Source: a virus
Length of the DNA: 64,000 nucleotides
Strand: one strand, 5' to 3'
Virus record (IMG/VR): IMGVR_UViG_3300042558_005120
Coordinates: 1-64,000 of that record
The notes under the pieces are model-generated. The model did not search any database and was not told where the DNA came from. It saw only the letters and a list, made by a program, of their open reading frames with translations. A program made the position numbers and the translations under genes. Every line of letters starts with the position of its first letter. Within the stretch, counting starts at the first letter, position 1. Positions 453 to 51,875 of this stretch are shown here, one piece after another.

Positions 453-3400
453 CTATCTGCCAGTTTTCATTTTTAATACTGTCATACTATCAACGGTGAT
501 ACTCGAGAATCCTTGTTGGATTGCAGAAATGATTGCTTCAGTATCAATCTGAGCTGGTTGCTGCTGTTGCTGTTGTGCCTGTGCAGATTCACCAGGCTGC
601 ATCATTGATTGCGCCTGGCTTCTTTTATCTGCTTCATTATATGCCTGTGGAGATTTATCACCCACTGTTGTACTTTTTCCTCCACCAAACGCAGCACTTA
701 CAGAGTCATTGATAAAGTTAACTATTCCTTCACTTTTTCCAATATCTACTTTGGATATTAGTATCATTGAATCCGTCCAGTCCTTAAACGCCTTGATGCT
801 AATTGGGTCCATGACTTTAAAGTTGTTAGCAAAGACGCCCATGTGTTTTGCCATATCACCGAATGACCTTACGAATTTCTCAAAAGGGTCTGCTATTTTT
901 GACAGACTTTCTGTGGTTTTTGCAAATTTATCGTACTTTTCAAGTAATGTTTGTGATAAGTTTCCATCCATTTTTGCGTAATCTGTTGTGGTAAAGATGG
1001 AACTTATAAAATAATTATAATTGTCAACTGATTTGTGAACTTTATCAGTGTCACTAAACGAACCCATCACAATTTCGGCTATTTCCTTATATTTTACACT
1101 TGCTGCTGCCAGTCCGGTTGAACCACTTTCGATTTCTCTTTTCCAAACACCATATTTTATCCCAGCGTCATACATTGCTTTAGGTAAAAAATCAACAATT
1201 GCATTTAAATTAGTCGCGGCCATTCCAAGTGTCTCTGTATTAATTCTAACTACTTTTGTAGGTGTTAATTTTCCGTCCACTATTTCATTCATCGTAAACT
1301 CACCCATTGCCATTTTTAGTACACTTTCGCCAAGTGTACCAAGCGACCCTGATATTTTTGCTAACATCTCGACACCTGCTGTTAGATATCCCTTTGCAAA
1401 CCACCCTCCTCCTTTTTTCGCATTTTTACCAAAATCGTAAAGCGCTTGAACTAAAGGATTCATTTTGGTTTTTCCAGCCTTTTCTGGGTCGTCAACATTA
1501 CCAACCAATCTCGTTATAAAATCTGCAGCCGCAGTAAAATGCCCTTGTTCTATTTTAATTGGGGCCCCAGGAACCAACTTCGCATCCTTTGTTCCAGGGT
1601 TAATCACAGTCATTGGAACAAATTCGCCGTTTGCCATTTTAAGAATTCCTTCGCCCATTGTATTAAATACAGTGCTTAAGCTTGCTAATGTATTAATACC
1701 TTCGGCTAAATAGCCATTACCAAACCATCCCCCGCCTTCCTTTGCTAGCTTTCCAAATGAAAACAGTGAAGTTACTAATGGATTTGCATTTAGCTTTCTA
1801 GCATCACCGTCCCCGGTCATTTCGGGATTACCAATTAAGTTATTAATAAATTCGCTCGCCTTTTTAAAGTGCTCTATGGTTATCTTTACAGGTGCACCAG
1901 GAACCAACTTAGCATCCGGTGTTCCAGGATTTGCTACAGTCATCGGAACAAATTCAGCTTCAGCTAATTTGAGAACACCTTCACCTACAGAACCAAGAAT
2001 TCCACTTAATTTTGCTAACATATCAATACCGTATGACATATGTCCACGACTAAACCAAGAAGAACCTCCTGATGCTGCTTTTCCAAAATCAGAAAGTGCT
2101 GTTGTTAATTGGTTATTATAAGACCCGTCAGTATTCATACCTAATAAAGCACGAACAAATGTATTGGCGTTTGTGAAATCCTGTTGGCTGAGTTTTCGTT
2201 TCGATTTAGGAACTAATTTTGCATTTTCTGTTCCTGGGTTGATAAGTTCAAATTCAACAACTTCCTGTTGTGCCATATCTGCGACACCTTTTGCAAGTGT
2301 TCCAAGTGTGCTGGATAAACGACCGAGAATGAAAATCCCAAAAAGCAGTTTAGGCATATCCGAGTATTTCAATTCACTGAACGGCTTAACGAATGCGGTT
2401 ACCGTTGCGTTTACGGCATCTTTTAACATTTCACCACTTTCTTTAGTATATTTTGCCTGCATAAACGTTTTAAGACCTTCGGTAAAAGGTCGTAGTGCAT
2501 ATCCTATTGCTGCAAAATACCCAAGACCTAAAGTTATGCCCATTACAAGTGAAAGTCCAGCAATACTACTTCCTAATGATGAAATTGTATATCCAAGAAT
2601 ATCTGCATCCTCTTTTGTTATTGGACGGACTGCATTTGCTTTTGTATATTCTGATAAACCTTTAACAAATAATATTAATGCTCCACCTAATACAATCATT
2701 AAAGCCGCACCGATTCCAACTGCGATATTAATTAACGGAGCGCCAATAACGGCTGCTGCTAATCCTAACCCTGCAATTACAGAACCCAACGCAAGTAATG
2801 AGTTGCCTCCATTTTTCCAATCATTAGCTAAAAATTCTGCAGCCCCAGATTTTACATATTTTGAAACACCCATTACAAATACAATCAGCGCCGCACCCAA
2901 TAGAATCATTAGTCCTGCTCCTATCGTAACTGTTAATGGTATACCGGTTAATAATCCCATTTCGTACATCCCCAAAACTGCAGCAGCTGCGGCTAATCCG
3001 ACAATCACAGCAGCAAGCGCCCCTAATGACACCCATCCTTCTGGTTTTGCTAAAAATTCTGCAGTTCCAGACTTATAATAAAAAACAAGGGCACCAACAA
3101 AAACTATTAAAGATGCCGCCACGATAACCATTGCAATGGCCCCGGCCATTGCTTTATCTTTTATGAAACCAAGGCCAGCAGCGGCCGCGCCCATAATAAT
3201 AATTACTAATCCTAGTTGTATTAGTTGCGCAATTGTTAAATCACCCGCCCCTGACACTTTATAAAAAGCAAGTGCAGCAACAAAGACCAATAAAGATGCG
3301 GATATAATAATAAGTGCAATTGCTCCATTTTTAGAATCTGCTTTACTTAACGCATACAATCCAACTGCTGTAAATAGCATTCCCAGCATTAATGCAAAAG

Positions 3401-4598
3401 CACCCGCCATGTAAAGTTTATTAACAGCTGGTATACCCAGAATAATCATAACCAATGAAATAACAGCAATTCCTGCAGATATCATAAGTAATGAGTCAAG
3501 TGGAGAACCTTTTTTATTTCCCTCGCCCGCTAACTTATGTGCGAGAAATAATACGCCCGCTATTGCTAATAACATTCCAACAAATACTACTCCGCCGGCA
3601 AATATTCTTTTTTGTACCACAGAAGTTGAAAGTGCAAGAATAACAAGTGTAAGAACCGCAATGCCCATAGAAATTTTCCATAATGCCCCGAGAGGGCTGT
3701 TGTCTTTGCCATCAGGCTTCCAATCTTTTGTTAATCCGTATGCAACATAAAGTGCATATGAGATTCCGACTATCATCCCAATAAATACTGAAGTTCCTTT
3801 TGCTATTTGCGGGCCAACAAATGATAATAGAATTAAAACTAAAGAGAATAATGCAATTGATTGGCCCATTTTTAATAGTGAACCCAGTGGACCTTTACTA
3901 AATCCTTCGCCAGTTCCAACAACTTTATTTACTAAATAAAGTGTTAATGCTATGGAAGCAATCACCATATTAAAAATCAAAGTACCTATTAAAACTTGAG
4001 GCGCTACTAAAGAAGTCAACGCCATAACCACCATAAACATACCAATACTCTTTGCCATTCCCATAAGTACAGCTAATGTCTCTGCTTGCTTTTTCTTCAT
4101 TTTTTCTAAGCCTACAAAAGTCTCATTCACCTTTTGAATTACTATAGAAAACATAGTCGCACCGATGATTGCCAACGGACCTAATATAGCTGCCCATGCT
4201 AATCCTTTCATTAGGTGCATGGTTCCTTTACTTATTGAATCAATGAATTTTGCAAAATGAAGTAGTTTTTCGGTGTCGTATTCTAAAACAGGGTTAACAA
4301 TATCTTTAAAAACAGTTTTGTAGAAATCGCTTATAAGAACCCTAGCGTCTGGCTTAATTAGACTTGCTTGAACTGCAACTTCAACCAAAGATTTCATATC
4401 AGTTGCAAATCCTGCTAATGGACTCATACCTATCCCGGCAGCAGGGGCTTTACCTTTACCTTTGGATTCTTCGCCTTCACCTTCACCTTCGCCTTTCTTT
4501 TTCCCTTTGTCACCTTTTTCTAATACTGCCAACATTTTCTTGTTGACATCAATTAAAGCATCTAATCTACTACTTATTTTTACACCGTCTGCTGACAT
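453..4598 (-). CDS. Probable tail tape-measure protein, rich in membrane segments
   Basis: A 1381-residue protein. Residues 1-100 hold a low-complexity charged stretch (about 32-50). Residues about 105-765 contain many hydrophobic, Gly/Ala/Ile/Val-rich segments, probably more than a dozen membrane-spanning helices. Residues about 780-1110 contain 3-4 copies of a ~100-residue repeat, each beginning near a NPGT..AKLVP motif and ending near GxxWF..GY. The C-terminus is Gln-rich (about 1340-1355). It follows the tube gene and a two-frame chaperone pair, the classic position of a tape measure. At about 1.5 angstroms per residue it would imply a tail near 200 nm. No sequence match to T4 gp29 is evident; another large virion or ejected membrane protein is possible. 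Confidence 0.6.
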   Translation of the reverse strand: MSADGVKISSRLDALIDVNKKMLAVLEKGDKGKKKGEGEGEGEESKGKGKAPAAGIGMSPLAGFATDMKSLVEVAVQASLIKPDARVLISDFYKTVFKDIVNPVLEYDTEKLLHFAKFIDSISKGTMHLMKGLAWAAILGPLAIIGATMFSIVIQKVNETFVGLEKMKKKQAETLAVLMGMAKSIGMFMVVMALTSLVAPQVLIGTLIFNMVIASIALTLYLVNKVVGTGEGFSKGPLGSLLKMGQSIALFSLVLILLSFVGPQIAKGTSVFIGMIVGISYALYVAYGLTKDWKPDGKDNSPLGALWKISMGIAVLTLVILALSTSVVQKRIFAGGVVFVGMLLAIAGVLFLAHKLAGEGNKKGSPLDSLLMISAGIAVISLVMIILGIPAVNKLYMAGAFALMLGMLFTAVGLYALSKADSKNGAIALIIISASLLVFVAALAFYKVSGAGDLTIAQLIQLGLVIIIMGAAAAGLGFIKDKAMAGAIAMVIVAASLIVFVGALVFYYKSGTAEFLAKPEGWVSLGALAAVIVGLAAAAAVLGMYEMGLLTGIPLTVTIGAGLMILLGAALIVFVMGVSKYVKSGAAEFLANDWKNGGNSLLALGSVIAGLGLAAAVIGAPLINIAVGIGAALMIVLGGALILFVKGLSEYTKANAVRPITKEDADILGYTISSLGSSIAGLSLVMGITLGLGYFAAIGYALRPFTEGLKTFMQAKYTKESGEMLKDAVNATVTAFVKPFSELKYSDMPKLLFGIFILGRLSSTLGTLAKGVADMAQQEVVEFELINPGTENAKLVPKSKRKLSQQDFTNANTFVRALLGMNTDGSYNNQLTTALSDFGKAASGGSSWFSRGHMSYGIDMLAKLSGILGSVGEGVLKLAEAEFVPMTVANPGTPDAKLVPGAPVKITIEHFKKASEFINNLIGNPEMTGDGDARKLNANPLVTSLFSFGKLAKEGGGWFGNGYLAEGINTLASLSTVFNTMGEGILKMANGEFVPMTVINPGTKDAKLVPGAPIKIEQGHFTAAADFITRLVGNVDDPEKAGKTKMNPLVQALYDFGKNAKKGGGWFAKGYLTAGVEMLAKISGSLGTLGESVLKMAMGEFTMNEIVDGKLTPTKVVRINTETLGMAATNLNAIVDFLPKAMYDAGIKYGVWKREIESGSTGLAAASVKYKEIAEIVMGSFSDTDKVHKSVDNYNYFISSIFTTTDYAKMDGNLSQTLLEKYDKFAKTTESLSKIADPFEKFVRSFGDMAKHMGVFANNFKVMDPISIKAFKDWTDSMILISKVDIGKSEGIVNFINDSVSAAFGGGKSTTVGDKSPQAYNEADKRSQAQSMMQPGESAQAQQQQQQPAQIDTEAIISAIQQGFSSITVDSMTVLKMKTGR
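783..1350 (-). repeat. Last repeat unit region of the tape-measure candidate
   Basis: This part of the 1381-residue gene encodes the degenerate final ~100-residue repeat unit (motif diverged to VDGKLTPTKVV) and the sequence after it. The repeat family as a whole is encoded between about 1,260 and 2,270. The boundary at 783 is approximate. Confidence 0.3.
1260..2270 (-). repeat. Tandem ~100-residue protein repeats in tape-measure candidate
   Basis: The encoded motif NPGT.[ND]AKLVP recurs at roughly 2230, 1920 and 1590, with a degenerate fourth copy near 1280. Between copies the pattern FxxANxFIxxLxG, then a Gly-rich GGxWFxxGY segment, then a LAxLSxxLxxxGExxLKxA helix is repeated. The copies are diverged at DNA level, so the duplication is old. 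Confidence 0.75.
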
Positions 4599-10542: not shown

Positions 10543-12420
10543 TTACATATCCTTAATTATTCGATAAATGCTCATTAGGTCATCAGTATTCTGAACGTCT
10601 TCATTTACTTTTCGCATAATCACATTTTTAATTGTAGGTTCGACTGTATCATATATATTCTCTACCATTTCGTAAAAATCAGTAGATGAGAAAAAAGGAA
10701 CTAAATCCACACAAGTCATTGCAATATCATCGTGACCGGTTTGTGATTCATAGCGACCTTGGGAATTTAGTCCAAATGCCGTTAGTTCGTCAACAGTTTT
10801 CTTTTCAGTAATAATAATTCTTTTTTGTTGAATTAAACTTCTTAGTTCTCTGGAATAAGATTCTTTATTATCCTTTTGTAGTTTAACACCTATCTTCATT
10901 GTGTCATTTGCAATACTGTGCTTTGTATGTAAAAATAACTCCGGATAGTAGTTTCTATTTTTTGACAGCTTTTCAACAATTATGTTACCTTTAAAGTTAA
11001 TCTCCAAAACTACCGAACAATTCTCATGGTGAAATATGCTGTAAACTAATATCTCTAATACTTTAGCAACTTCATCAACCGAAGTACTGTTTGACTGAAA
11101 TATACCAACCTGTCGAAGTCGGAAGAAACTGGATTCATCATTCCAATCCCTGGTTCCACGAATACCAACAAGAGATTGTGGCTCCATTTTAAAAATATTG
11201 ATAACTGAATAGTCGCGGCCAACACCATCACCTAAATCTAAAACAAAAACAATTTGGTCATTGACTGCATCTCTTCTCGTTGGGTCATAATCTGGGTGCC
11301 ATTTTAAATGTGTACCTAAATCTGGAAAATCTAAAAAGTCATCAATCTCGACCCACTTGTATGGCTTGCAAATTTTATTCAGAAGTTGCAATGTTTGACT
11401 TGAAAGCAATAACCTTGAAGAAGCTAAGAATTGATTTCCATATTCTTGGTTAAAAAGTTCTTCATTTCCTAAGTTAGCAATTTCTCTTTTTTTCCATTCT
11501 TCGTCTCTGCCAGGAACTTCCCACCAATCGACCCTAATAGCATTAAATGCGTTTGACTTAGTTAAAGCACCTTGGTAGATATTATAGAAAAGATTCATCC
11601 CATGGGGCGTGGACGAAATAATCATCCTAGATATCGTTGACGAAGAAAGTGTTGGATAAATTGAACGATAAAAAGGTTCCAAAAAGTTAGGATGGATGTG
11701 AGCAAACTCATCCGCATACAACAAGTGGATAGTAAAACCAATCGCTGCTGTTTTTGTTGTTGCCTGAGAATAAAGACGATTACCATTATCGAATTTCATA
11801 GTAGTTACAGCATTTGTAACGATACCTGGCTTCATAAAGAATGGCAAATTCTTTAACACGATTTTGATTTTATCTACAATCTCAGTAGTTGTTGCTAATT
11901 TATTTGCAACAACCATAGCATTTCTATCAAAGTGGAAACAAATATACCAAGCAATAAATATACTACTTGTTACAGTATTATGTGAAAGAATGCCATTTGT
12001 ATAAAAGCGATGGTTTGGATGGTTGACTGTCAAATCAAACATCGAATAATTGTTACTACTTTTTATTATTTTAATTACTCGCTCAGCGCCATCTTGTGTA
12101 TAGATATAATCACCTATTTCCAAATTGTCAATAAAAATTTGTTGTAATTTATCAGTAAAAATAATATGTTGGTCAGCAGCATATATTTTTTTACCAGTAT
12201 CTGTTTCAATCGTCCATTCTGTAAATGGCTGAGTTATATGGATATCACTAACGCCAACCCAACCCGTGTCCGACATTACTTGTATGTCTGTATTTATACC
12301 AACCGTATTGATAATTTTTTTAGATGAGTCGAATTGGTTTAATTGCAAATGGCGATACTCAAACCGTTCAATTAATTGAATAGTTTTTATAATCGCTATT
12401 TTAAGTATCTTTTTTATCAT
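10543..12420 (-). CDS. gp17: Terminase large subunit, C-terminal part, with split-intein C half
   Basis: A 625-residue protein. Residues 1-148 are an intein C-part: it holds the block-B-like segment (AADQHIIFT, about 81-89), the F block (RFYTNGILSHN) and ends HN at 148. The extein begins with Thr149 and continues the terminase ATPase straight after the Walker A lysine. Visible terminase motifs are the Walker B ADEFAHIHP (about 235-245) and nuclease acidic residues in FVLDLGDGVGRD, VLEINFKGN and GHDDIAMT. Spliced to the 110 N-extein residues encoded at 13749-14078 it gives 587 residues, near T4 gp17 (610). Its ATG overlaps the end of the endonuclease gene by 20 bases. Residues 1-40 look like an extra leader to the intein. 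Confidence 0.9.
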   Translation of the reverse strand: MIKKILKIAIIKTIQLIERFEYRHLQLNQFDSSKKIINTVGINTDIQVMSDTGWVGVSDIHITQPFTEWTIETDTGKKIYAADQHIIFTDKLQQIFIDNLEIGDYIYTQDGAERVIKIIKSSNNYSMFDLTVNHPNHRFYTNGILSHNTVTSSIFIAWYICFHFDRNAMVVANKLATTTEIVDKIKIVLKNLPFFMKPGIVTNAVTTMKFDNGNRLYSQATTKTAAIGFTIHLLYADEFAHIHPNFLEPFYRSIYPTLSSSTISRMIISSTPHGMNLFYNIYQGALTKSNAFNAIRVDWWEVPGRDEEWKKREIANLGNEELFNQEYGNQFLASSRLLLSSQTLQLLNKICKPYKWVEIDDFLDFPDLGTHLKWHPDYDPTRRDAVNDQIVFVLDLGDGVGRDYSVINIFKMEPQSLVGIRGTRDWNDESSFFRLRQVGIFQSNSTSVDEVAKVLEILVYSIFHHENCSVVLEINFKGNIIVEKLSKNRNYYPELFLHTKHSIANDTMKIGVKLQKDNKESYSRELRSLIQQKRIIITEKKTVDELTAFGLNSQGRYESQTGHDDIAMTCVDLVPFFSSTDFYEMVENIYDTVEPTIKNVIMRKVNEDVQNTDDLMSIYRIIKDM

Positions 12421-13583: not shown

Positions 13584-14078
13584 TCAATCCAGCCAATCAT
13601 AAATTTTCCAAAGACGCCATTTTATTTTTTCAGCAAATGTTAATTTGCGTTCCTTTTTCAGTATTATAAAATAAAGGTTTCCTAATGAAATTTCTTTAAC
13701 TTCTTGCTCCGGAAATTTCACCTTTATTTTAGTTGAATAAGAAGCACACTTCCCAATCTGGCGGCTTGCAACCATAACGTTGAAGCGATTATCTTGGAAA
13801 TCTCGTAACATTTTTTTCTGGTACCCTCTAAGTTTAATTCGAGAAATACCTTCGTCCGTCATTGAATAACAATAGTTCTCTCCAAAATAAACTACGTCAT
13901 CTGCGCATTTTGCAATTTCTTGTAGTTCCTCATCGGTATAATCGAAAACAATATCCGGTGCTCGGTAATCTATTTTACCGTCAGCAAAAGGAGAGTAATC
14001 AGCCTGTCCGCCTTGCTCTATTTTTGTAATTTCTTCATTGATCCTTTTGGTTGACCAAACCTTACCTCTACTCGACAT
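13584..14078 (-). CDS. gp17: Terminase large subunit, N-terminal part, with split-intein N half
   Basis: A 164-residue protein. Residues 1-110 are the terminase N-terminus, with the Q-motif-like GYQKKML (about 85-91) and the Walker A segment VASRQIGK ending at Lys110. Cys111 starts a 54-residue N-intein (block A, CASYSTKIKV) that stops before the usual block B. The normal Walker A Ser/Thr is missing here and is supplied as Thr149 of the partner protein, so ATP binding needs trans-splicing. The gene overlaps the gp16 gene by 11 bases. The last ~25 residues (basic, Trp-rich) are unlike other inteins and may be a tail acquired at the break. Confidence 0.9.
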   Translation of the reverse strand: MSSRGKVWSTKRINEEITKIEQGGQADYSPFADGKIDYRAPDIVFDYTDEELQEIAKCADDVVYFGENYCYSMTDEGISRIKLRGYQKKMLRDFQDNRFNVMVASRQIGKCASYSTKIKVKFPEQEVKEISLGNLYFIILKKERKLTFAEKIKWRLWKIYDWLD

Positions 14079-31407: not shown

Positions 31408-32526
31408 TTAGTTAATTATCATTTCATTATTTTTTTCCATATCTCGAAGTGTCTCGTGATAGATACCAGTACTTGTTTTTATCAAACGTTCTTTAATACT
31501 AGATGTATATGCTAATTCATTAACATAAGTTTCAATTAATTTAACAATCGAAATTGAGTCAGGATTTTCAATATCCCCTTCTATATCGTCCTCAACCTTT
31601 TCACCTTCTTCTTCGGTAATAATAACGTGATTGATTTTTCGATACCCAGACAGTTTATCCATAAAGACTGCAAATGGAAATTTCAGTGACCATTGCGGTG
31701 TCATATGAATATCCACAAAGTTATTGGCAAATAGACGTTGGATTGTTTCAATGTTTTGCTCGAGCAACCATTCAAGGCGATACCGCAAAAATTTAGGTGA
31801 CCGAGTATTCTCCCAAGAAGTTTCTTCTAATGTTTCCAAATCAACTCGCCAAACAGATTTAATATTGCCTGCATCCGAACGGGTCAGCTGATAAGGCGAA
31901 CCAACCATTCTAATGTTTTTATATTTTTGTGTATAGTGAATATGGCCGGAGTAGACTTGTGTATAATTGTTGAATACTTCTGCTTCATTTCCTTCTTCAA
32001 CTTTAACATTTCTACTGAATGAAACACCCCGGACATCGGTGTGGCAAAAAAGTAAATCAGCTTTGTTTTTTGGATTTTGGACAAATTCTCTAAGTTCATC
32101 TTCCTCTTCAACCCACGGCAAAAACATCCCTGTAGATTTTCCAAAATTAACAAGCTGCGGGTTTTCAAAAACTGTTACATTTTTTGTATGTTTAAAAAGC
32201 TTCATTGAGTTTATCTCATTTGTATGCTTCATAAAAATATCGTGGTTGCCGATAATAATATAAACCGGCAAAATATCCGCAAGTGCTTCGATAATCTCTT
32301 GGCCTTTATTCATAATATACAAATTAATAGACTGTCGAGAATCAAATGTATCGCCGCAGTGAATTAGAATATCACCGGGTTTGTGTTCGGATTTAATTAG
32401 TGGAATTAAAAAATTGTGAAAATAGTCATCAATTATTTCCATCCATTCTTTAGAATTATTTCTGACACCAAAATGTGTATCTGAAATAATCCAAGCTCTG
32501 GTTGCGGGAACATTTAAAGTAGTCAT
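31408..32526 (-). CDS. gp47: Recombination endonuclease subunit, SbcD/Mre11-like
   Basis: A 372-residue metallophosphoesterase, matching T4 gp47 (339). Metal-binding motifs are clear: SDTHFG (about 15-20), GDTFDSR (about 58-64), GNHD (about 95-98), FCHTDVRG (about 157-164) and YSGHIH (about 192-197). It is the nuclease partner of gp46. Its ATG overlaps the stop of the preceding gene. The C-terminal ~50 residues are acidic and then helical. Confidence 0.92.
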   Translation of the reverse strand: MTTLNVPATRAWIISDTHFGVRNNSKEWMEIIDDYFHNFLIPLIKSEHKPGDILIHCGDTFDSRQSINLYIMNKGQEIIEALADILPVYIIIGNHDIFMKHTNEINSMKLFKHTKNVTVFENPQLVNFGKSTGMFLPWVEEEDELREFVQNPKNKADLLFCHTDVRGVSFSRNVKVEEGNEAEVFNNYTQVYSGHIHYTQKYKNIRMVGSPYQLTRSDAGNIKSVWRVDLETLEETSWENTRSPKFLRYRLEWLLEQNIETIQRLFANNFVDIHMTPQWSLKFPFAVFMDKLSGYRKINHVIITEEEGEKVEDDIEGDIENPDSISIVKLIETYVNELAYTSSIKERLIKTSTGIYHETLRDMEKNNEMIIN

Positions 32527-32945
32527 TAAAAAAGTCGTTTAATATTTTTCTTTGCGAATATTTTATACTTGCCATCCAACTCACGGATAATTCGATCTTG
32601 GTATGCAGAACCTAATTCATTAAACAGTGTCTCATACGGCGCAGTCATAAATTCAGCAATTGCTGTAAACCTTTCAACCGCAGACATATCGTCAGACTTT
32701 AATCGGTCATCAAAGTAATAATAGATTTCTGCTAAAACTGATTTGCTGTTTTTTCGTGTTTTCTCAAAGTCCCCAGAATACGGTGACTCTTTGTAGATTT
32801 TGTATAAATCTTCTTGAAGCTTTGTTTCAATATAGTCTTCGTATAAATCCCCAGTTGCTTCTTGAACTACTTTAATTTCACCAAATAGTTCATAGTCAAT
32901 ATCCCCACGGTTAAAACTATTGTTAAATATTTTATCTTCTTTCAT
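32526..32945 (-). CDS. Hypothetical protein
   Basis: A 139-residue acidic, helical protein with no motif that I recognise. It is placed between the helicase C-part and gp47 and coupled to gp47 by a stop-start overlap, suggesting co-expression with replication and recombination functions. Confidence 0.7.
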   Translation of the reverse strand: MKEDKIFNNSFNRGDIDYELFGEIKVVQEATGDLYEDYIETKLQEDLYKIYKESPYSGDFEKTRKNSKSVLAEIYYYFDDRLKSDDMSAVERFTAIAEFMTAPYETLFNELGSAYQDRIIRELDGKYKIFAKKNIKRLF

Positions 32946-32950
32946 ACTTG

Positions 32951-34072
32951 TTATTCGTTAATAATTTGTGAATCGGGGTCTTCGGTTATGGACATATAAT
33001 CATAATCAATTAAAAACTTTTTTCGAGAATTTTTGTATCCGTCATCTCGATTCGCTAACAGTTTTAACATATACTCACGGTTGGCGTGCATAATTTCATC
33101 TTGGATGATACCAAACATAGCATCCACCGTATGACCTAAACCCGAAGACTCGGAAATATTAGTAATATTCAAATCAGTACTGCCGAAACCACTTCTGTTG
33201 ACTTGAGTTGCTGTGATAATTGCCCATTCATTTCGCATTGCCATGGCACGTAGGTCTTCAGCGATTTGTTTAATTTTCATATACATATTTTCGCTGTTTG
33301 GATTTCTCCAGTTTTTCAAGATATTAATGTAATCCAGGACAATTACTTTGAATTTAATACCTTTCATCTCTTCCATTTTCCTTAGATACATTTCCAAATC
33401 GGGAACACCTGCAGATGAAGTCGGAAATTCTTTTACAAATAATTTACCAGGCATCTGTAAATTGTTATAACCGATGCCTGCTAATTTTTTCTTAACCGCA
33501 ACTTTGTCTCTGGCAAAGTCACCATATTCTCGCATACTGATTCCAAGCATATTTGCACCCAAACGTTTGATTACTTTACGGTCTCGCATCTCTAAAGAGA
33601 TTACTGCAGTATTATAACCAAGTTTTACAGAATTAGATGCCACGTTTGCTAACCAGATAGAATTGTGACTTAATATACCGTTTGTATAGAACCTACGATT
33701 CTCATCTGAAAGTTGTAAATCATACATATTCTCGTATGTGCCAGTTTGGTTGATTGAATAAATCATCTCTGGTCCACTATCAGTGAGTATGTAATCACCT
33801 ATTTCTAGTTCATTGATAAATGTTTCAGAAAAAGCATTCAAGCCAGAAGAACATTTATACACAATATGAGTGTCAGCAGCACGTAAATTGAAAGATTCTG
33901 TTTTAATCTCCCATACTTCGTATTCTACTGTTTTGCCTATTGCTTTAATATCAACCCACCCGGTATCTGTTAAAACTTCAAATTCTTCTGTTCTATCTCC
34001 AAAAGTGAATGTTTCTACAAATTTTTTATACGGTCTTTCTTCTTCTGTTTTTTGAATAAAATCTTTTTGCAT
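32951..34072 (-). CDS. gp41: Replicative helicase, C-terminal part, with split-intein C half
   Basis: About 373 residues from ATG 34072 (an in-frame TTG 18 bases upstream is less likely). Residues 1-137 are an intein C-part with block-B-like RAADTHIVY (about 64-72), ELEIGDYILTDSG and the closing RFYTNGILSHN. The extein then starts with Ser, giving GEMKIGK-S across the splice, i.e. a restored Walker A. Helicase motifs follow: ISLEMRDRK (H1a), VIVLDYINIL (Walker B) and ITATQVNRSG (H3). Spliced with 197 N-extein residues this gives about 433 residues (T4 gp41: 475). The intein part is clearly homologous to that of the terminase. Confidence 0.9.
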   Translation of the reverse strand: MQKDFIQKTEEERPYKKFVETFTFGDRTEEFEVLTDTGWVDIKAIGKTVEYEVWEIKTESFNLRAADTHIVYKCSSGLNAFSETFINELEIGDYILTDSGPEMIYSINQTGTYENMYDLQLSDENRRFYTNGILSHNSIWLANVASNSVKLGYNTAVISLEMRDRKVIKRLGANMLGISMREYGDFARDKVAVKKKLAGIGYNNLQMPGKLFVKEFPTSSAGVPDLEMYLRKMEEMKGIKFKVIVLDYINILKNWRNPNSENMYMKIKQIAEDLRAMAMRNEWAIITATQVNRSGFGSTDLNITNISESSGLGHTVDAMFGIIQDEIMHANREYMLKLLANRDDGYKNSRKKFLIDYDYMSITEDPDSQIINE

Positions 34073-34126
34073 ATTTTTTATTTTAATCAATACAATTTGC
34101 TGATACTTTAATTTTCTCGGAATTTT

Positions 34127-34642
34127 TTACCAGTTTGAATTAGTTGAATTTGTTTTTATGTGTTTATCATAACTAATAATTATTTCCTCTAGATCTTTTT
34201 TAAGTGATTCCATAAGTTCAATCCAATTTTTTTTAAATAAACAAGATTTTGATGTGCCTGGATATTCTTCCTGGGGTTCTAATATTAGAAAGCTGCCATT
34301 ACAATCACTGGATGAATATTTTACATTGTCAACAATTATTTTGTATTTAAAATCTTTCATAAGGATTTTTATTGTATATGAATACCAAAAGGTAAGACCG
34401 TTATTAGAAATTTCTTTTATAGTACCTTTTATTATAATAATACCGTTTTCCTTATCATCATTTTGAATAACTTCTTTAGATGATTTCCATTTTTCGGCAA
34501 TAAAAAATTTTGTATCTGAATAAATCTCATCTTTTGTTTTTTCTACAGAATCAATTTTCTCCCATGTAAAGTTTTTCTGAGAATACGAATAAAAAGATGA
34601 TAACATCATTAGTGCAATCATTAGATACTTAATAGTTTTCAT
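34127..34642 (-). CDS. Secreted DUF4468-like protein (Bacteroidetes-type cargo)
   Basis: A 171-residue protein with a clear N-terminal signal peptide (MKTIKYLMIALMMLSSFYSYSQ; cleavage likely before Gln22, as is common in Bacteroidetes). The mature part has a DEIYSDTKFFIAEKW segment and VIQNDDKENGIIIIKGT, which match the DUF4468 pattern seen in Bacteroidetes envelope proteins. It does not belong to the T4 core and interrupts the space between the endonuclease and the helicase C-part. Likely picked up from a host; an envelope or surface role in the infected cell is possible. Confidence 0.7.
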   Translation of the reverse strand: MKTIKYLMIALMMLSSFYSYSQKNFTWEKIDSVEKTKDEIYSDTKFFIAEKWKSSKEVIQNDDKENGIIIIKGTIKEISNNGLTFWYSYTIKILMKDFKYKIIVDNVKYSSSDCNGSFLILEPQEEYPGTSKSCLFKKNWIELMESLKKDLEEIIISYDKHIKTNSTNSNW

Positions 34643-34696
34643 TTAAGTTATTTTTAGTTTGTTTATAGAATAATTATAATTTATATGAAAAAATAA

Positions 34697-35785
34697 TTAA
34701 TTAGTTTTATTAATAAAATTAACACAATCGGAAATAACTTTCTCTGGATTATTTCGATAATCATTTTCCCATACAACTAATACTTGGTATCCACATTTTT
34801 CTATTAAATGTATCTTTTCAGTGTGAGCATCCCAAATTTCCTTTGCGGTTTTTTGTATCATTTTGTGGAAATACGTTGATTCATAAGTAGAAGGATTACA
34901 ATGCCAATAATCACCATTGAACTCAATAATTTTTTTGTCAATTACAAAGTCGTATGCAAAACACTTTTGTACTTCTGGAAAAAATCGAAAATATTGTTTT
35001 TGCCCGTTAAGTGCACAGTAATAAGTAGTGGAAGGCTCTAATTGGTCAACTATAGATTTAATTAATTCTAATTCAACAGAAGAGTATATGGTTTTACAAA
35101 TTTTTGTGAACTCACCGTTTTTGTATTTTTCTTCAATCTTTTTGCTCCATTTTATATGTCTTTCTTTCCATACCTCAGGGCCTAAATCTGAACCATATTT
35201 GTCAATACATTTTTCTAAAGTAAACGTTCTTTGTCTTTCCTTTTGCATTTCTTTAGCATCTTTAATTGTATATCCTTTGTTTAACCAATATTCCAATTCT
35301 AAAGGTGTTCTGCCTTTATATAATTCAGGATTATTTCGTATTTTATCTAAAAATACGCCAACCATTGAATTTGTTTGCTTCTTTTGTTGTGCTAAAGCTT
35401 CTTCTTTAGAATATCCTTTGTTTTCCCAATATTCTATTGTATTAAAATGCTGTCCAGGGTTTTCCTGTTTAGATTTACTTATGTTCTTTCCTCTTTTATT
35501 ATAAGAGCTGTTAATCTTATTAACAGCTTGCTCATAAGTTAATCCGAACTTTTCCATCTGCCACTGTGGGTTTGTTGTTAATTTAGCGGTCGCTGTTTTG
35601 TTTTTTAATTCATTGACTTTAGTAACCGCTTCATTATACGTTAAACCAAATTTTTGTATCTGATAATCTACAGAATACGGATTAGATTTTTTCCCCTGTA
35701 TCTCTTTAATTTTAATCAATGCTTCCTCTTCTGATAATCCAAACTTTGTCATTTGATAACTGACGTCTTTCCAACTTTTTCTCAT
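34697..35785 (-). CDS. Homing endonuclease (Vsr/EDxHD type) with repeat array, between helicase halves
   Basis: A 362-residue protein. Residues about 1-185 contain five imperfect repeats of ~30-40 residues around a [YW][QW]xxKFGLTYxxAVxKIN or YWxxKGYSxEEA core, a likely sequence-reading DNA-binding array. Residues about 185-360 match the other endonuclease here: KERQRTFTLEKCIDKYG, then a Vsr-like nuclease with EFNGDYWHCNP and VVWENDY. It lies between the two gp41 genes, as expected for a mobile element that homes into the split-intein locus. Confidence 0.8.
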   Translation of the reverse strand: MRKSWKDVSYQMTKFGLSEEEALIKIKEIQGKKSNPYSVDYQIQKFGLTYNEAVTKVNELKNKTATAKLTTNPQWQMEKFGLTYEQAVNKINSSYNKRGKNISKSKQENPGQHFNTIEYWENKGYSKEEALAQQKKQTNSMVGVFLDKIRNNPELYKGRTPLELEYWLNKGYTIKDAKEMQKERQRTFTLEKCIDKYGSDLGPEVWKERHIKWSKKIEEKYKNGEFTKICKTIYSSVELELIKSIVDQLEPSTTYYCALNGQKQYFRFFPEVQKCFAYDFVIDKKIIEFNGDYWHCNPSTYESTYFHKMIQKTAKEIWDAHTEKIHLIEKCGYQVLVVWENDYRNNPEKVISDCVNFINKTN

Positions 35786-35843
35786 AGTTTGTAATGAATA
35801 TTTTAAATTATATATTCATTGGAGAGATGAAAATTTATGCAAA

Positions 35844-36536
35844 TTAATATGGGATAAATCGTTTATGGAATTCACCAATTTCAATTTCTTCAACAACTCC
35901 TGTTTTTTTGTTTCGGACAGCAATTTTGGCATCAGATGTGGTGCATTTACCAATTTTCATTTCACCGATAAAACAAAAAAGAGCTTTGCTGTACCATCCA
36001 CCGCCTAAGATTAAATCGAGATAAGGATATCCCGTAGAGAAAGTATCTGATGTTGGTTGCTCGTGGCTGTCGGGATTAAAGAAATCCAAACCTTCGTCAA
36101 ATCCAAATTGAATATTATTCCGGTCAGTGATAATCGACTTTGCAGTTTGGACAACATCTTTAATGTTCTCGGCATTGATTTTTGTATTTTTCAGATAGGC
36201 TATCAAATCCATTACTGAAAGATCCAAATTTTTAAATTCAATCCAAGATTGTGCAGTCTCAGAAATCCAGGTTGTGTCGAATTCAGAAAGACGAGTTTCA
36301 AAAATCATTTCAATTTTGGTCGAAGAAAGGTCATCCCCCAATTCTTGCATTTTTGAAATCTCAACACATTGTGCTGATGTAGGTACTTGAGAGTATTTTT
36401 GAATAAACTCAACAGATATTTCATAAAGTTTTCGAATATCTGGAGAATCAAAAAACCTGGGTTTCACAATATCCAACAGCTCTTTGTTGGCCATCAGATA
36501 GTGATAAAATATTTTTTCGAGGTGTGGTGCTGTCAT
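35844..36536 (-). CDS. gp41: Replicative helicase, N-terminal part, with split-intein N half
   Basis: A 230-residue protein from ATG 36536 (MTAPHLEK; the in-frame TTG 15 bases upstream is less likely). Residues 1-197 are the helicase N-domain and start of the RecA fold, ending in FIGEMKIGK (Walker A lysine 197). Cys198 starts a 33-residue N-intein (CTTSDAKIAV...), one of the shortest natural N-parts I would expect, stopping before block B. Without the partner the Walker A serine is absent, so helicase activity should depend on splicing. The last residues (FHKRFIPY) precede the stop. Confidence 0.9.
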   Translation of the reverse strand: MTAPHLEKIFYHYLMANKELLDIVKPRFFDSPDIRKLYEISVEFIQKYSQVPTSAQCVEISKMQELGDDLSSTKIEMIFETRLSEFDTTWISETAQSWIEFKNLDLSVMDLIAYLKNTKINAENIKDVVQTAKSIITDRNNIQFGFDEGLDFFNPDSHEQPTSDTFSTGYPYLDLILGGGWYSKALFCFIGEMKIGKCTTSDAKIAVRNKKTGVVEEIEIGEFHKRFIPY

Positions 36537-36566
36537 AGATATTATATGCAAAATTAGTTAAATAGT

Positions 36567-36866
36567 TTACACCCAAGGCATATAGGTTAACTTAAATCGA
36601 TCTTTATTTTTTTCCAATTTAATTAGACTATCACTGTTAGGATTTACTAATTTATCCAAAAAAGTTCTTAGTTCTTCAATTGTACTAAAATGATATTTCA
36701 TTCCTGACCAAACTTGCTCTGGCAAAAAATCTTTACTTAGTCTATTTAAGTCGTCCAAGGTTGATACCAACGCATAACAGAGGTCGTCATACGTTGGGTA
36801 ACCAGGCATTTCTTGATAGACACCAAGTAAGTATTTAATCGGTAATTTAGACTGATTAATTTTCAT
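36567..36866 (-). CDS. Hypothetical protein
   Basis: A 99-residue protein I do not recognise, with two predicted helices (about 25-45 and 60-75) and Tyr/Pro-rich termini. Its ATG overlaps the last 11 bases of the UvsX C-part gene, so it is probably coupled to it. It precedes the helicase N-part. Confidence 0.7.
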   Translation of the reverse strand: MKINQSKLPIKYLLGVYQEMPGYPTYDDLCYALVSTLDDLNRLSKDFLPEQVWSGMKYHFSTIEELRTFLDKLVNPNSDSLIKLEKNKDRFKLTYMPWV

Positions 36867-37566
36867 CTTCTAAAATGGTGTTTGCAATTTCATCGTCTTC
36901 CAATTCGTTGATTTCATTAATATTTGGAAGCATAAATGTTTTCTTGATAATTTTTTCATCCAACTCTTTAAGAACTTCTTGCGTGATTATTTTTGCTGTA
37001 AAAAGTTCATTAGGCTTAATTGAATCTGCAAGGTGGCGAACAGCGATTGTCCTGGAAGTTTCCTTTCCTTCAAAGTAAAGGACTTCCTCGACCCCATTTT
37101 CTCGTGTTACTGTAAAACGAGTATTTGCTATTTCCGCTTGTTCGGCCGGAGACTTCTTATTAAATTCCTTTTCGGTAATAAGTTTACCTCTTTGTATTCC
37201 ACAAGTTTCCCAATTCATATACTCTTCTAAGCCAACAAAGCGGTTCATACCGCGAATAAAACTGATGTGAAACTTAATTGGAATTGGTCGAGCAAAACGA
37301 TTCTTTGCAGGTTTAGATGTAACAATAATTCCGGTTCGATTAGTTCCATCTTCCTTTAATTGTGCCTTGCTTAGTTGCAATATAATTGAAGCATTGTATA
37401 TTGCCCCGCCTCCACCACTGATTGTTTGTCCAGGGATATACGACCCGATCGAATTGTGCATCACAACCCCATCTTTGGACAAATAATGATGTGCAGTTGC
37501 AACTTCAATATCGTACACCGTATTTAAGTCACCCTGTTCTTTTTTAAGAAGTTTTAATTTTTTCAT
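36856..37566 (-). CDS. uvsX: UvsX recombinase, C-terminal part, with split-intein C half
   Basis: A 236-residue protein. Residues 1-38 are a classical short intein C-part (YDIEVATAHHYLSKDGVVMHN, cut here as block G, ending HN). The extein begins Ser39 with SIGSYIPGQTISGGGGAIYN, the loop-L2 and DNA-binding region of RecA/UvsX, followed by the C-terminal strand-exchange core (KPAKNRFARPIPIKF) and an acidic tail (about 205-236) typical of UvsX. Spliced with 208 N-extein residues the protein would have about 406 residues, near T4 UvsX (391). Confidence 0.9.
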   Translation of the reverse strand: MKKLKLLKKEQGDLNTVYDIEVATAHHYLSKDGVVMHNSIGSYIPGQTISGGGGAIYNASIILQLSKAQLKEDGTNRTGIIVTSKPAKNRFARPIPIKFHISFIRGMNRFVGLEEYMNWETCGIQRGKLITEKEFNKKSPAEQAEIANTRFTVTRENGVEEVLYFEGKETSRTIAVRHLADSIKPNELFTAKIITQEVLKELDEKIIKKTFMLPNINEINELEDDEIANTILEDEN

Positions 37567-37604
37567 TGTTTGTTTTTATTTTCAGAAATCATACATTTTT
37601 GTAC

Positions 37605-38513
37605 TTATTTAACAAAAATTTCATCACCTTCTTCTAATTCATCAGCAGTAATCCAAGAATCCGTACTTGTAATATCATCTGGGTTAACCAAGAATAAGTG
37701 AAGTGGAGAACATTCAATTTTAATATCACCTTCAAAGTGTAGTTTAATAGTTCGGGTGTTATCATATTTAAATGTATCAACAACCGGCTGTGGTCCATCG
37801 ATTGTCATAACCACATCATTAATTTTGATTTCTTCTAGTTTTTTGCAAGTACCGTCTGCCATTTGTACTTCTGTATCACCTAAAGCACAAGCATAAGTGT
37901 GGTTTGTAAATATAAACGGGATTTTAAATTCAGCAAGGTCAGTTGTGATAACTCTAAAAAGTGAACGAAGATCTTGCTGTTTTGTCATATCCTTTTTCTC
38001 ACTTCCACTTGCAGCATCTACTTTTTCTTTTGTTGTTGCCAAGTTTCCTAATGAGTCTAACACCAACATAATTTTCGGAAGTTCAGTTCCTTTTTCTTTT
38101 GCTTTGCGTAAAGTGTCACATAAGTTAGCAACAAAGTGTCGGACTTCTAATGAAGTTGCAACTGGTTGGTAGCGAACTTTATCTGGGTCAATTCCAAAAT
38201 TTCTCATTATATCTTCATCCACTGCTGCTTCAGAGTCACAATAAATAATATTGTAACCCATCCTTTGAGCTTCACGGCAAGCATTTAATGTTAAAAAAGT
38301 TTTGCCCGTTCCTGACTCACCCGCAAAACAAATTGAACGAGAATTAGGTATCCCGCCAAAAAGTGAACCCGTTAATTGCGCATTTAATAAATAGTTACCA
38401 GTATCAATCCACTCATCAATTTTTGAAAAAGTATTCCCGGTAATAATTGAACCCTTTGGGTTGATTTTGGATAACACCGTATCCAATTCTGAAAAAGAAA
38501 ATCCTTTTGCCAT
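37605..38513 (-). CDS. uvsX: UvsX recombinase, N-terminal part, with split-intein N half
   Basis: A 302-residue protein. Residues 1-208 are the RecA-like core: Walker A AGESGTGKTF (about 66-75), IIYCDSEAAVDED, Walker B IMLVLDSLGNL (about 150-160) and FIFTNHTYA at the splice edge. Cys209 starts a 94-residue N-intein with block A (CALGDTEVQM), block B-like CSPLHLFLVN and a DELEEGDEIFV end. This is the usual split position between the N and C intein parts, unlike the atypical splits in gp17 and gp41. Only 38 bases separate it from the C-part gene and no endonuclease is present. Confidence 0.92.
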   Translation of the reverse strand: MAKGFSFSELDTVLSKINPKGSIITGNTFSKIDEWIDTGNYLLNAQLTGSLFGGIPNSRSICFAGESGTGKTFLTLNACREAQRMGYNIIYCDSEAAVDEDIMRNFGIDPDKVRYQPVATSLEVRHFVANLCDTLRKAKEKGTELPKIMLVLDSLGNLATTKEKVDAASGSEKKDMTKQQDLRSLFRVITTDLAEFKIPFIFTNHTYACALGDTEVQMADGTCKKLEEIKINDVVMTIDGPQPVVDTFKYDNTRTIKLHFEGDIKIECSPLHLFLVNPDDITSTDSWITADELEEGDEIFVK

Positions 38514-38527
38514 ATAATTTTTTTATT

Positions 38528-39715
38528 TTAAAAAAGTGCAGTTCGCACAAAAAGCTCTTCAGGTATTGAAGGGATGCCCATTGAATTTAAAAATCGGTTC
38601 ATTGGTTCGATAACACATTTTGCAAACTGAATATCATAGTCAACCTCGGGTGCCATTTCAGTAGGGAAACCGCCTGGCAGATATCCAAAGATATTCTGCC
38701 CGGCAGGACCCTTTGATTTTGCATAATAGTATCTAATTTTGTCACCTGATTTGATAAGCTCGTATTTGTTTTTCCATTTTGAGTTATGGACCAAATAGTT
38801 ATGATACCCGGCAGCTCGAACGTGAATGGGACAATTTGGATTTATTATAAAAGTGTCTCGGTCATTTGCGATTCCTTTCTCATAGTCATTGATACTTGAA
38901 GACATCGAAATTGCTTCAATATCACTTAACATAAATTCTTCCTTTTCTTTCTTTAAACGTTGAACGAATTTTTTAAGATCCAACTTGTTTCTTTCTTGAA
39001 AAAGAATAATTAACAAATCTTTTAGTCTTTTTCGAGCAAATGCAGGTGTAGAAGATTGAACAATCTCTACACCCTTTGCATCAATTTTGCTTTGTGGTTG
39101 GTAGCGAATACCATCGCCTTTGCCGGTTTTCCAAGCCTTATCCATAACGTATTTTTTCTTTTTCAAGAAAATAGCTGAATACGAAAGGGTTTCAAATTCT
39201 AGGTTTTGAATATTTTCTGTTCCAGATTTTTCTGCAAATTTTGCAAAATTCTTATCCAAATATTGTTTTAACCTAAGTTTGTAAATTTGATGTATCAGTT
39301 CTTCTGCGGACCCGTTCCAATCACATCCATTAACAACTTCTTGGAAAGTAATATAGACCGAATCTGTATCGCCATAAACTGATACATCATTAATTACTCG
39401 TTCAACTCTGGTTAGACCAAGCTTTGTGTGCAGCTCTTTATCTCGATACCAAAATTCTGAAAAATAACGATTCATAATACTTTGAACAAACTTGATAAGT
39501 TCTTGTCCTTGAAGCGTAATTGCTTCTGCAACTTTAATATTAAAACCAACAAAGTACGCGGATGCGGTTGCACCATAACAGCTGTTGATAAAGATTTTTA
39601 TTGCTTGTTCTTCATTTTTTTTGATGTTCATTAAAGAAGTTAATCTTTCGATTTCAGCTTTAATGTCATCACGACTTGCAGAAACTAAATCAATGTTCGA
39701 ATATTTTAAATCCAT
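38528..39715 (-). CDS. gp43: DNA polymerase (family B), C-terminal part
   Basis: A 395-residue protein holding the second half of the T4 gp43 polymerase: fingers motif B KIFINSCYGATAS (about 42-54), motif C VYGDTDSVYI (about 113-122, catalytic Asp pair), the KKKYVMDKAWK thumb-proximal segment, and the thumb. It starts in the fingers coiled coil. No intein sequence is present at its start. The N-terminal half is 10.8 kb upstream at 50475-51875; together they make 861 residues (T4: 898). It directly precedes UvsX and follows the clamp gene. Confidence 0.92.
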   Translation of the reverse strand: MDLKYSNIDLVSASRDDIKAEIERLTSLMNIKKNEEQAIKIFINSCYGATASAYFVGFNIKVAEAITLQGQELIKFVQSIMNRYFSEFWYRDKELHTKLGLTRVERVINDVSVYGDTDSVYITFQEVVNGCDWNGSAEELIHQIYKLRLKQYLDKNFAKFAEKSGTENIQNLEFETLSYSAIFLKKKKYVMDKAWKTGKGDGIRYQPQSKIDAKGVEIVQSSTPAFARKRLKDLLIILFQERNKLDLKKFVQRLKKEKEEFMLSDIEAISMSSSINDYEKGIANDRDTFIINPNCPIHVRAAGYHNYLVHNSKWKNKYELIKSGDKIRYYYAKSKGPAGQNIFGYLPGGFPTEMAPEVDYDIQFAKCVIEPMNRFLNSMGIPSIPEELFVRTALF

Positions 39716-50474: not shown

Positions 50475-51875
50475 TTAATTATTTAATTGTTGTTCTAAAT
50501 ATTGAATTTCTGCTTCGATTGCTTCGTATTCTTTTTTTGCTGTTTTACGTTTATTATAATAATCAGTCAAAACTGTGCGAAAGATTGAATCTTCCTTTTT
50601 ACTAAAAACTGCCCCGGATGCAGTCAAAATTTCCTTTTCAAAGTCAACAGTTTCCCCAACTTTAATGTTTCGCAAATAAGAGTCCGGAGAAATATTCCAT
50701 TGGCGCATAATAAATGGATATAGAGAAGCAAAGTCCAATGAACCCACCCATTCGTATAATCCAGTTTTCGGGTCAACAACAAAGGCACCTTCGTACTTGC
50801 CTTTTTTCTTTTCAACCTTTTCAGATTTTGGTATTACTTTATTTCGATTTAAACACTCACGGCACATCGCGGCTTCTGCCATATAGATTGGAGAAAATGC
50901 TCGATTGATTTCAACCTTGGTTATGTTTGCAAGTGTTAAAAATGTTTGCAATGTGTTGAGCTTTTCATCAATCAGTTCAACTAATTTGGTATCGACCACA
51001 TTATAAAAAATATACGACTCAAAATCATTATTATATAATTCTTGTAGTGAACCGTTAAATTTTACTTTTTGTACACCCAATGCAGCACTTGCAACAAAGT
51101 CCAGGGTATTGTTTTCTTTAATGTCAACAACCCGATCCCATTTTTTATAGATATCCATATAGTCAACAATCAAACGGTGCATTGGCATCGGATTATCCTT
51201 TCCAACTAATTTCCCAGAAACCGATGAAGGTTTCATATTTATATTAAGTCGCTTACAACGGTTTGTTAAATATTGCCAGTCAAATTTTGTAAAGTTCCAA
51301 CCAGTTAGTAGTGGTAATTTTAAAATTGCTTTATGAAAAAAACTAACTAACATATCGTACTCACTTGAAAACTTCAAATAAGTAAATTCCATAACCATCC
51401 CATTCAACTGCTTTTCCAAGTGTTGATTCATTCGGTTCTCAATACTTTTGATTTGTACTGCAGATAAATCCTTTAATCCCATACAGATCATTTTCTTGCC
51501 ATTACAAAATGCAATTGCTGTTACTGGGTATTTTGCAGTTTCTGGTTTTGGCCATTCGTCTCCAATCTCGACCTCGATATCCATGAACCATTTCTTTGGA
51601 GTATTAAATTCGTAAATTTCATCTATGGTTCCTGACGGCAAAGATTCGATATATTCAATTACTCTAAAGTTAGAGATGTTCTTTGCCTTTTTCTTTTTTA
51701 CTGGCTTGTCGTCCCACGATAAAGTACCAGGATAGGATTTTTCGCCGGACTTACAATACTCCCAATTATACATTTCCTCTTCAGGGATTCTTATGTTTTT
51801 TATCGAGATACCACCTTCTTTATTAAAAAAGGAAATGTTTAATTCTGAGTTTTCTTGTTCAATATCAATTATCAT
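50475..51875 (-). CDS. gp43: DNA polymerase (family B), N-terminal part
   Basis: A 466-residue protein holding the first half of gp43. The 3'-5' exonuclease motifs are KWFMDIEVEIGDEWP (Exo I, about 110-118), GWNFTKFDWQYL (Exo II, about 190-200) and YNVVDTKLVE (Exo III, about 290). Polymerase motif A is SLDFASLYPFIMRQWNI (about 377-393). It ends in the fingers coiled coil (EYEAIEAEIQYLEQQLNN), without an intein. The catalytic motif C is in the other gene at 38528-39715, so activity needs assembly of both. Splitting of gp43 in the fingers is known from Aeromonas T4-like phages. Confidence 0.93.
   Translation of the reverse strand: MIIDIEQENSELNISFFNKEGGISIKNIRIPEEEMYNWEYCKSGEKSYPGTLSWDDKPVKKKKAKNISNFRVIEYIESLPSGTIDEIYEFNTPKKWFMDIEVEIGDEWPKPETAKYPVTAIAFCNGKKMICMGLKDLSAVQIKSIENRMNQHLEKQLNGMVMEFTYLKFSSEYDMLVSFFHKAILKLPLLTGWNFTKFDWQYLTNRCKRLNINMKPSSVSGKLVGKDNPMPMHRLIVDYMDIYKKWDRVVDIKENNTLDFVASAALGVQKVKFNGSLQELYNNDFESYIFYNVVDTKLVELIDEKLNTLQTFLTLANITKVEINRAFSPIYMAEAAMCRECLNRNKVIPKSEKVEKKKGKYEGAFVVDPKTGLYEWVGSLDFASLYPFIMRQWNISPDSYLRNIKVGETVDFEKEILTASGAVFSKKEDSIFRTVLTDYYNKRKTAKKEYEAIEAEIQYLEQQLNN

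Follow-up and report, generated by a model that had tools for sequence, protein, structure and literature searches.

Fractured genes, reportedly described by Dassa in 2009, are said to carry the halves of a split intein with a free-standing Vsr-like endonuclease between them, as does the locus treated here. The position between the Lys and the Ser or Thr of a P-loop (K/S or K/T, with the slash marking the insertion point) is a 'classic' intein site (PMC5050341, PMC6195587). The P-loop Ser serves as the +1 residue in mycobacterial DnaBi1 (PMC6195587), and the mycobacteriophage intein TerL1-a lies between the P-loop Lys and Thr (PMC5050341). Both of these inteins and the TerL intein of Salmonella phage Maynard, inserted at the same position, are contiguous, and DnaBi1 belongs to class 3. 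The split position of AceL-TerL and GOS-TerL has been named S2 (PMC13014065). This work describes a T4-like gp41 helicase gene that is interrupted between the Lys and Ser of its Walker A motif (GEMKIGK/S). It lies in a window of 64,000 bases (bases 1-64000 of the 109,206-base IMG/VR virus record IMGVR_UViG_3300042558_005120) that holds T4-like replication and structural genes, mostly on the minus strand. Judged from sequence and structural models, the interruption is very probably a mobile, atypically split class 1 intein with a homing endonuclease, which makes gp41 a fractured gene. The arrangement itself is of a known kind, and contiguous inteins at K/S or K/T have been described before in mycobacterial DnaB and in phage TerL.

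All parts of the gp41 locus lie on the minus strand, in the transcription order N-extein, N-terminal intein half (IntN), endonuclease, DUF4468 gene, C-terminal intein half (IntC) and C-extein (Table 1). The N-part (36536..35844), whose start codon is conserved among relatives, reads ...GEMKIGK/CTTSDAKIAVRNKKTGVVEEIEIGEFHKRFIPY up to its stop codon. The C-part starts at ATG 34072, its intein segment ends in RRFYTNGILSHN, and the helicase continues with SIWLANVAS. About 1.77 kb separates the IntN stop from the IntC ATG. The C-extein also matches PHROG 19 (E 4e-40), and the joined helicase is predicted to be 433 amino acids (aa) long. A preliminary description of this DNA had claimed a 33-residue, Cys-first IntN directly after GEMKIGK, about 137 intein residues ending in TNGILSHN before a Ser, and a gap of 1.8 kb with two genes in it; each of these features was recovered, the genes being the endonuclease and an open reading frame (ORF) of 171 aa.

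By its residues and its predicted fold, the gp41 insert is an atypically split class 1 intein at Walker A, as had been proposed. The class 1 residues Cys1, block B H68, C-terminal H135-N136 and Ser+1 are present, and these positions are invariant or nearly so among relatives (alignment A5 and the IntN survey described below). IntN and IntC align end to end with contiguous TerL inteins, including the annotated Maynard intein (ARQSGK/C...HN/T), which belongs to the same sequence family. By this alignment the intein is divided in the loop that follows alpha1, so that two genes encode an IntN of 33 aa and an IntC of 137 aa, an atypical (S2, AceL-like) division. The AlphaFold2 (AF2) model of IntC (predicted local distance difference test score 89.7) returned 33 PDB matches at E ≤ 0.001, the top ones being inteins, in agreement with a Hint fold. 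Compared with known inteins, IntC is closest to VidaL by fold (6vgv; E 3e-7, TM 0.68), with Cat and gp41-1 also matched, and to the Cat IntC by PDB sequence. Block B of the gp41 IntC reads A-D-T-H, with A65 and H68 invariant in alignment A5 and Ala replacing the Thr of the typical Thr-x-x-His. In block F, the window, L018 and L028 have Arg (NRRFYTNG) where most relatives have His (NHRYYTNG). The block B Thr and the block F His are treated as non-essential here because they vary within this intein family; AceL-type inteins likewise depart from canonical residues.

The gp41 C-part was found at 23 loci, and most of them have an uninterrupted gp41 reading ...GEMKIGKSIWLAN.... In L021, a sister phage with 97% DNA identity to the window, gp41 is uninterrupted. 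When 33662-35945 is removed from the window, the remainder aligns with the L021 gp41 without gaps (each 60-base block has 51-60 identical positions), and the insert is therefore a precise addition and not a product of chance. The TerL gene of L021 is intact as well, lacks the TerL intein described below and is 98% identical. As L021 has both an uninterrupted gp41 and an intact TerL, sequence comparison indicates that the gp41 insert is a precise, gene-disrupting and dispensable addition. In the flanks of the insert, the synonymous divergence (dS) between the window and L021 is 0.04 in the N-extein and 0.20 in the C-extein, an inequality that is possibly a co-conversion tract left by homing.

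The split falls at the same codon in six distinct gp41 alleles (window, L018, L028, L003, L010 and L023), and the alleles of L002 and L025 are identical to that of the window. A full endonuclease gene separates the gp41 halves in the window, L028, L010 and L023, and is reduced to a 71-aa remnant in L003. No endonuclease is present in L018, where 66 bases separate the IntN stop from the IntC ATG; gp41 is still split there because these bases contain in-frame stops. Introns occur in replication genes of T4-like phages, which counts for an interruption at the RNA level (group I or II intron), an option that we consider, together with an assembly artefact, to have a negligible chance of being right: the coding sequence of the intein halves is conserved as protein, and the layout is repeated in the identical record L002 and in independent alleles on other contigs. 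An RNA intron was also rejected by search, as no Rfam intron was found in 32400-37000 and a SNORD21 match (E 0.94) fell far under the cut-off.

The whole C-parts of the window and L018 are 84% identical. The ratio of nonsynonymous to synonymous divergence (dN/dS) between these two alleles is 0.02-0.03 in the exteins, about 0.08 in IntN and about 0.12 in IntC, all of them rough values with dS near saturation. These low ratios suggest that both intein halves are maintained, apparently by purifying selection. Free-standing endonucleases also split phage genes whose two peptides work (nrdA, cited in PMC10448857), and gp41 could be a two-subunit helicase that needs no splicing, like the genes-in-pieces ribonucleotide reductase, with the intein remnants as inert tails. 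We regard this as very unlikely, given that the break sits between the P-loop Lys and Ser, that complete intein segments, nucleophiles and terminal HN are apparently under purifying selection even in the endonuclease-less L018, and that the pairing of the halves is kept in distant phages. It is similarly improbable that the intein is recent and decaying, with splicing weakened or lost and the phage surviving through mixed infection. Such decay would suit an intein-less sister allele that differs by only about 3% and a DUF4468 passenger that is new at the locus, but neither half has frameshifts or stops, none of the invariant motifs is broken, and L018 has the same intein in conserved form.

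The 362-aa endonuclease of the gp41 locus combines about five helical KFGL..EEA repeats with a C-terminal nuclease domain. Its residues D279, E288, G291 and H295 are invariant in 33 relatives, and E340 is nearly so (alignment A6). The sequence gave weak Vsr matches against PDB. The best PDB match of the AF2 model is I-Bth0305I (3r3p; probability 1.00, E 0.054), and the next among sensible matches is Vsr (probability 1.00, weak E-value). A free-standing enzyme with Vsr-like catalytic residues and a Vsr-like predicted fold is what lies between the two halves; the window differs from EDxHD fractured genes by its extra DUF4468 gene. The N-terminal repeats ('K-F/K-G-L/Y-S-x-E-E-A', about five in tandem) occur in several copies in relatives too and are perhaps a modular DNA-recognition array. 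The DUF4468 gene, among six related contigs searched, is present only in the identical record and is probably a passenger. It had been called host-like; a gene does stand at this place, but it may be phage-borne because it matches PHROG 4002 besides the Pfam DUF.

From the known behaviour of these intein and endonuclease families, we infer that trans-splicing, DNA cleavage and homing take place and that active helicase requires splicing. The two halves of gp41 would be translated separately and are very probably rejoined after translation by what is probably an active trans-splicing element. The 33-aa IntN (beta1-beta2-alpha1) would dock onto the 137-aa IntC to complete the Hint fold, after which the acyl group of Lys(-1) would pass to Cys1, Ser+1 would attack and the C-terminal Asn would cyclise. 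The exteins would be joined as GEMKIGK-SIWLA, restoring Walker A with the P-loop Ser as the +1 nucleophile, and the spliced helicase would contain the junction-spanning ...GEMKIGKSIWLANVAS.... In co-infection, the EDxHD endonuclease would probably cut gp41 alleles that lack the intein, at their P-loop codons, and repair would copy the entire insert into the cut allele. Weighing against a functional mobile intein are the replacements of the block B Thr by Ala and of the block F His by Arg, which could affect the splicing rate, the saturation of dS between the window and L018, which leaves dN/dS only rough, and the endonuclease fold match to 3r3p, which is weak by E-value though ranked first.

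Among known split inteins, gp41-1 likewise interrupts a T4-like gp41 helicase and uses Ser+1, and the preliminary description suspected that its site is a different one. Native gp41-1 loci read ATQTTRSGY/C...HN/SSSDVELTDTSESFGL, a site that corresponds to F295/G296 of the window C-part. The insertion (ATQTTRSGY/SSSDV) lies 159 residues downstream of the P-loop Ser, and the split is canonical (IntN 88, IntC 37), which confirms the suspicion and rejects gp41-1 as the site or type of the window intein. VidaL resembles the window intein in fold, in its P-loop location and in the Vsr-like endonuclease of one native locus. It was rejected as the same intein since its native loci (L189-L192, IMG/VR contigs) are in the uvsX P-loop, reading GESG/CLPKEAVVQIRLTKKG...HN/SGKS, which is three residues upstream of K/S, with an IntN of 16 aa (S1 split). 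In L189 a Vsr-like EDxHD endonuclease lies between the VidaL halves; it is missing in L191. AceL-TerL, GOS-TerL and Cat share with the window intein an IntN of 25-37 aa ending after alpha1, a long IntC, a TNGI(L/V)SHN end and a phage ATPase gene as host. The AceL/GOS-TerL type differs in protein and site: a terminase relative of this type, with +1 Cys, is inserted at FE/CEFFG in L107, and judged by this relative the AceL-type site was rejected too. The TerL gene of L107:1-2544 (a contig of a Flavobacterium metagenome-assembled genome) carries two split inteins, one of P-loop type (HN/TTTT) and the one at FE/CEFFG.

As far as could be checked, and with the published lists of fractured-gene sites outside the comparison, K/S of gp41 is a site without a previously described split intein of gp41. 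No GenBank phage record covering at least 80% of the gp41 C-part was found, nor one joining IntC to a helicase, and no isolate phage with the helicase version; the 309 records that resemble IntC are, among the matches listed, terminase genes in every case with an informative annotation. The site is distinct in that it differs from those of gp41-1, VidaL and the AceL type, but its novelty is smaller than had been implied because K/S or K/T is a classic P-loop site and split inteins occur in helicase P-loops at about twenty IMG/VR loci.

The preliminary description counted the gp41 intein as the second of this phage at the same Walker A position. This holds: TerL is split at ASRQIGK/C...HN/T (13749/13748 and 11977/11976), where K/T is equivalent to K/S of gp41. 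A profile scan of the 109-kb record gave two clear IntC places, both inside the window. Recent copying between gp41 and TerL within the genome was rejected, as the gp41 IntC groups with L018 and L028 (support 100/99) and the TerL IntC with that of TerL in L124 (99/82). Several motors of one phage carrying split inteins at once would suit a regulatory role, in which the split intein is kept as a switch and conditional trans-splicing times the assembly of active helicase. DnaB and RadA P-loop inteins have been reported as conditional sensors (PMC6195587), and in L018 and elsewhere the intein has survived its endonuclease. Even so, a switch seems unlikely: the sister phage without any such intein indicates dispensability, and persistence without an endonuclease is also expected, precise loss being rare.

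Table 1. Coordinates of the gp41 and TerL intein features in the window.
Feature	Position	Strand	Match or source
gp41 N-extein, 197 aa, ATG 36536, end GEMKIGK (first part of Walker A)	35946..36536	-	PHROG 19 DnaB-like replicative helicase, E 5e-11
IntN, 33 aa, Cys1 to Tyr33, stop 35844-35846, split after alpha1 (S2-type)	35847..35945	-	
Free-standing EDxHD/Vsr-type endonuclease, 362 aa	34697..35785	-	PHROG 22677, E 9e-19
Endonuclease nuclease core	34766..34951	-	Alignment A6
Passenger gene (probable), 171 aa, DUF4468 / PHROG 4002	34127..34642	-	Pfam, E 5e-8
IntC, 137 aa, ATG 34072, end TNGILSHN	33662..34072	-	
gp41 C-extein, 236 aa, first residue P-loop Ser (+1), stop 32951-32953	32954..33661	-	Pfam DnaB_C, E 3e-13
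Whole insert, 2,284 bp, precisely absent from L021	33662..35945	-	
TerL IntN, 54 aa, after ASRQIGK	13587..13748	-	
TerL-associated endonuclease, 375 aa	12401..13528	-	Same family as gp41-locus enzyme, 42% identical (six-row alignment)
TerL IntC, 148 aa, end TNGILSHN before T(+1)	11977..12420	-	

The wider family was surveyed with an IntC alignment scan that included non-P-loop members. The best 80 of its 416 candidate stretches were retained, a sample narrowed by ranking on similarity to the window. IntN was scored on its own, using a profile restricted to intein residues. Of 55 distinct IntN hits, 48 follow directly after GK, two more do so after register correction and one follows SK; the rest are at a second TerL site (2) or are truncated duplicates (2). 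The +1 residue of 62 distinct IntC is Thr in 35, Ser in 25 and Cys in 2. The host proteins, named by eye from their sequences, are DnaB/gp41 helicases, TerL, the gp44 clamp loader, a gp46-like protein, Clp-like ATPases and one additional ATPase. The intein tree, built from 116 columns and with many forks unresolved, mostly tracks the host protein (label changes number 10; the minimum is 7, and shuffled labels give 28). Some supported mixing of hosts, TerL of L118/L127 with the helicase of L120/L133 (96/98), is consistent with occasional moves between P-loops. We tentatively propose, short of favoring it, that the family is dedicated to the Walker A K/S or K/T site and spreads between unrelated motors of one phage (helicase, terminase, clamp loader, SMC-like, Clp-like), so that several essential motors would need trans-splicing; what would allow such spread is that P-loop ATPases share GK before and Ser/Thr after the site. 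Going by the survey, atypically split inteins seem to occur mostly at P-loops, and their unusual split point may mark the place of the endonuclease: this gene is fused in L124, usually free-standing in the gap, and lost in some loci that are still split. In L124:3415-6474, the endonuclease, IntC and TerL C-extein form one ORF, intermediate between an embedded and a free-standing enzyme.

Most surprising are how broad this P-loop family is and that two motors of one phage are split by its members. What is new is a predicted natural split intein pair with a short IntN (33 + 137 aa) and the native junction GK/S, for which the near-isogenic intein-free phage provides a control, which makes the pair useful for ligation and equally for testing homing. 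For the tool intein VidaL, the native genomic setting, the uvsX P-loop, is supplied as well.

Further interrupted genes were seen in the window and on related contigs. In window 36856-38513, uvsX is interrupted by a canonically split intein (N-part ...SHTYA/CALGD, C-part HN/SIGSY) with only a short gap and no endonuclease, and the gp43 DNA polymerase is in two pieces (38528-39715 and 50475-51875) that lie about 11 kb from each other, their junction showing no obvious intein. In L018:885-3687, a split intein accompanied by a Vsr-like endonuclease of its own interrupts gp43 at YGDTDS/V. The uvsX gene of L010:543-3294 is split within the P-loop (HN/TGKT), with an EDxHD endonuclease gene just upstream. 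In L003:1226-4338, uvsX is split by a canonical-type split intein, and an IS605 OrfB/TnpB-like ORF (2184-3428, zinc-ribbon motif) lies between the halves, the usual place of a homing endonuclease. A contiguous intein occupies K/S of a DnaB-like helicase in L105:1172-4258, a Candidatus Izimaplasma contig; after it comes an endonuclease-like gene that is free-standing and has zinc-finger-like repeats.

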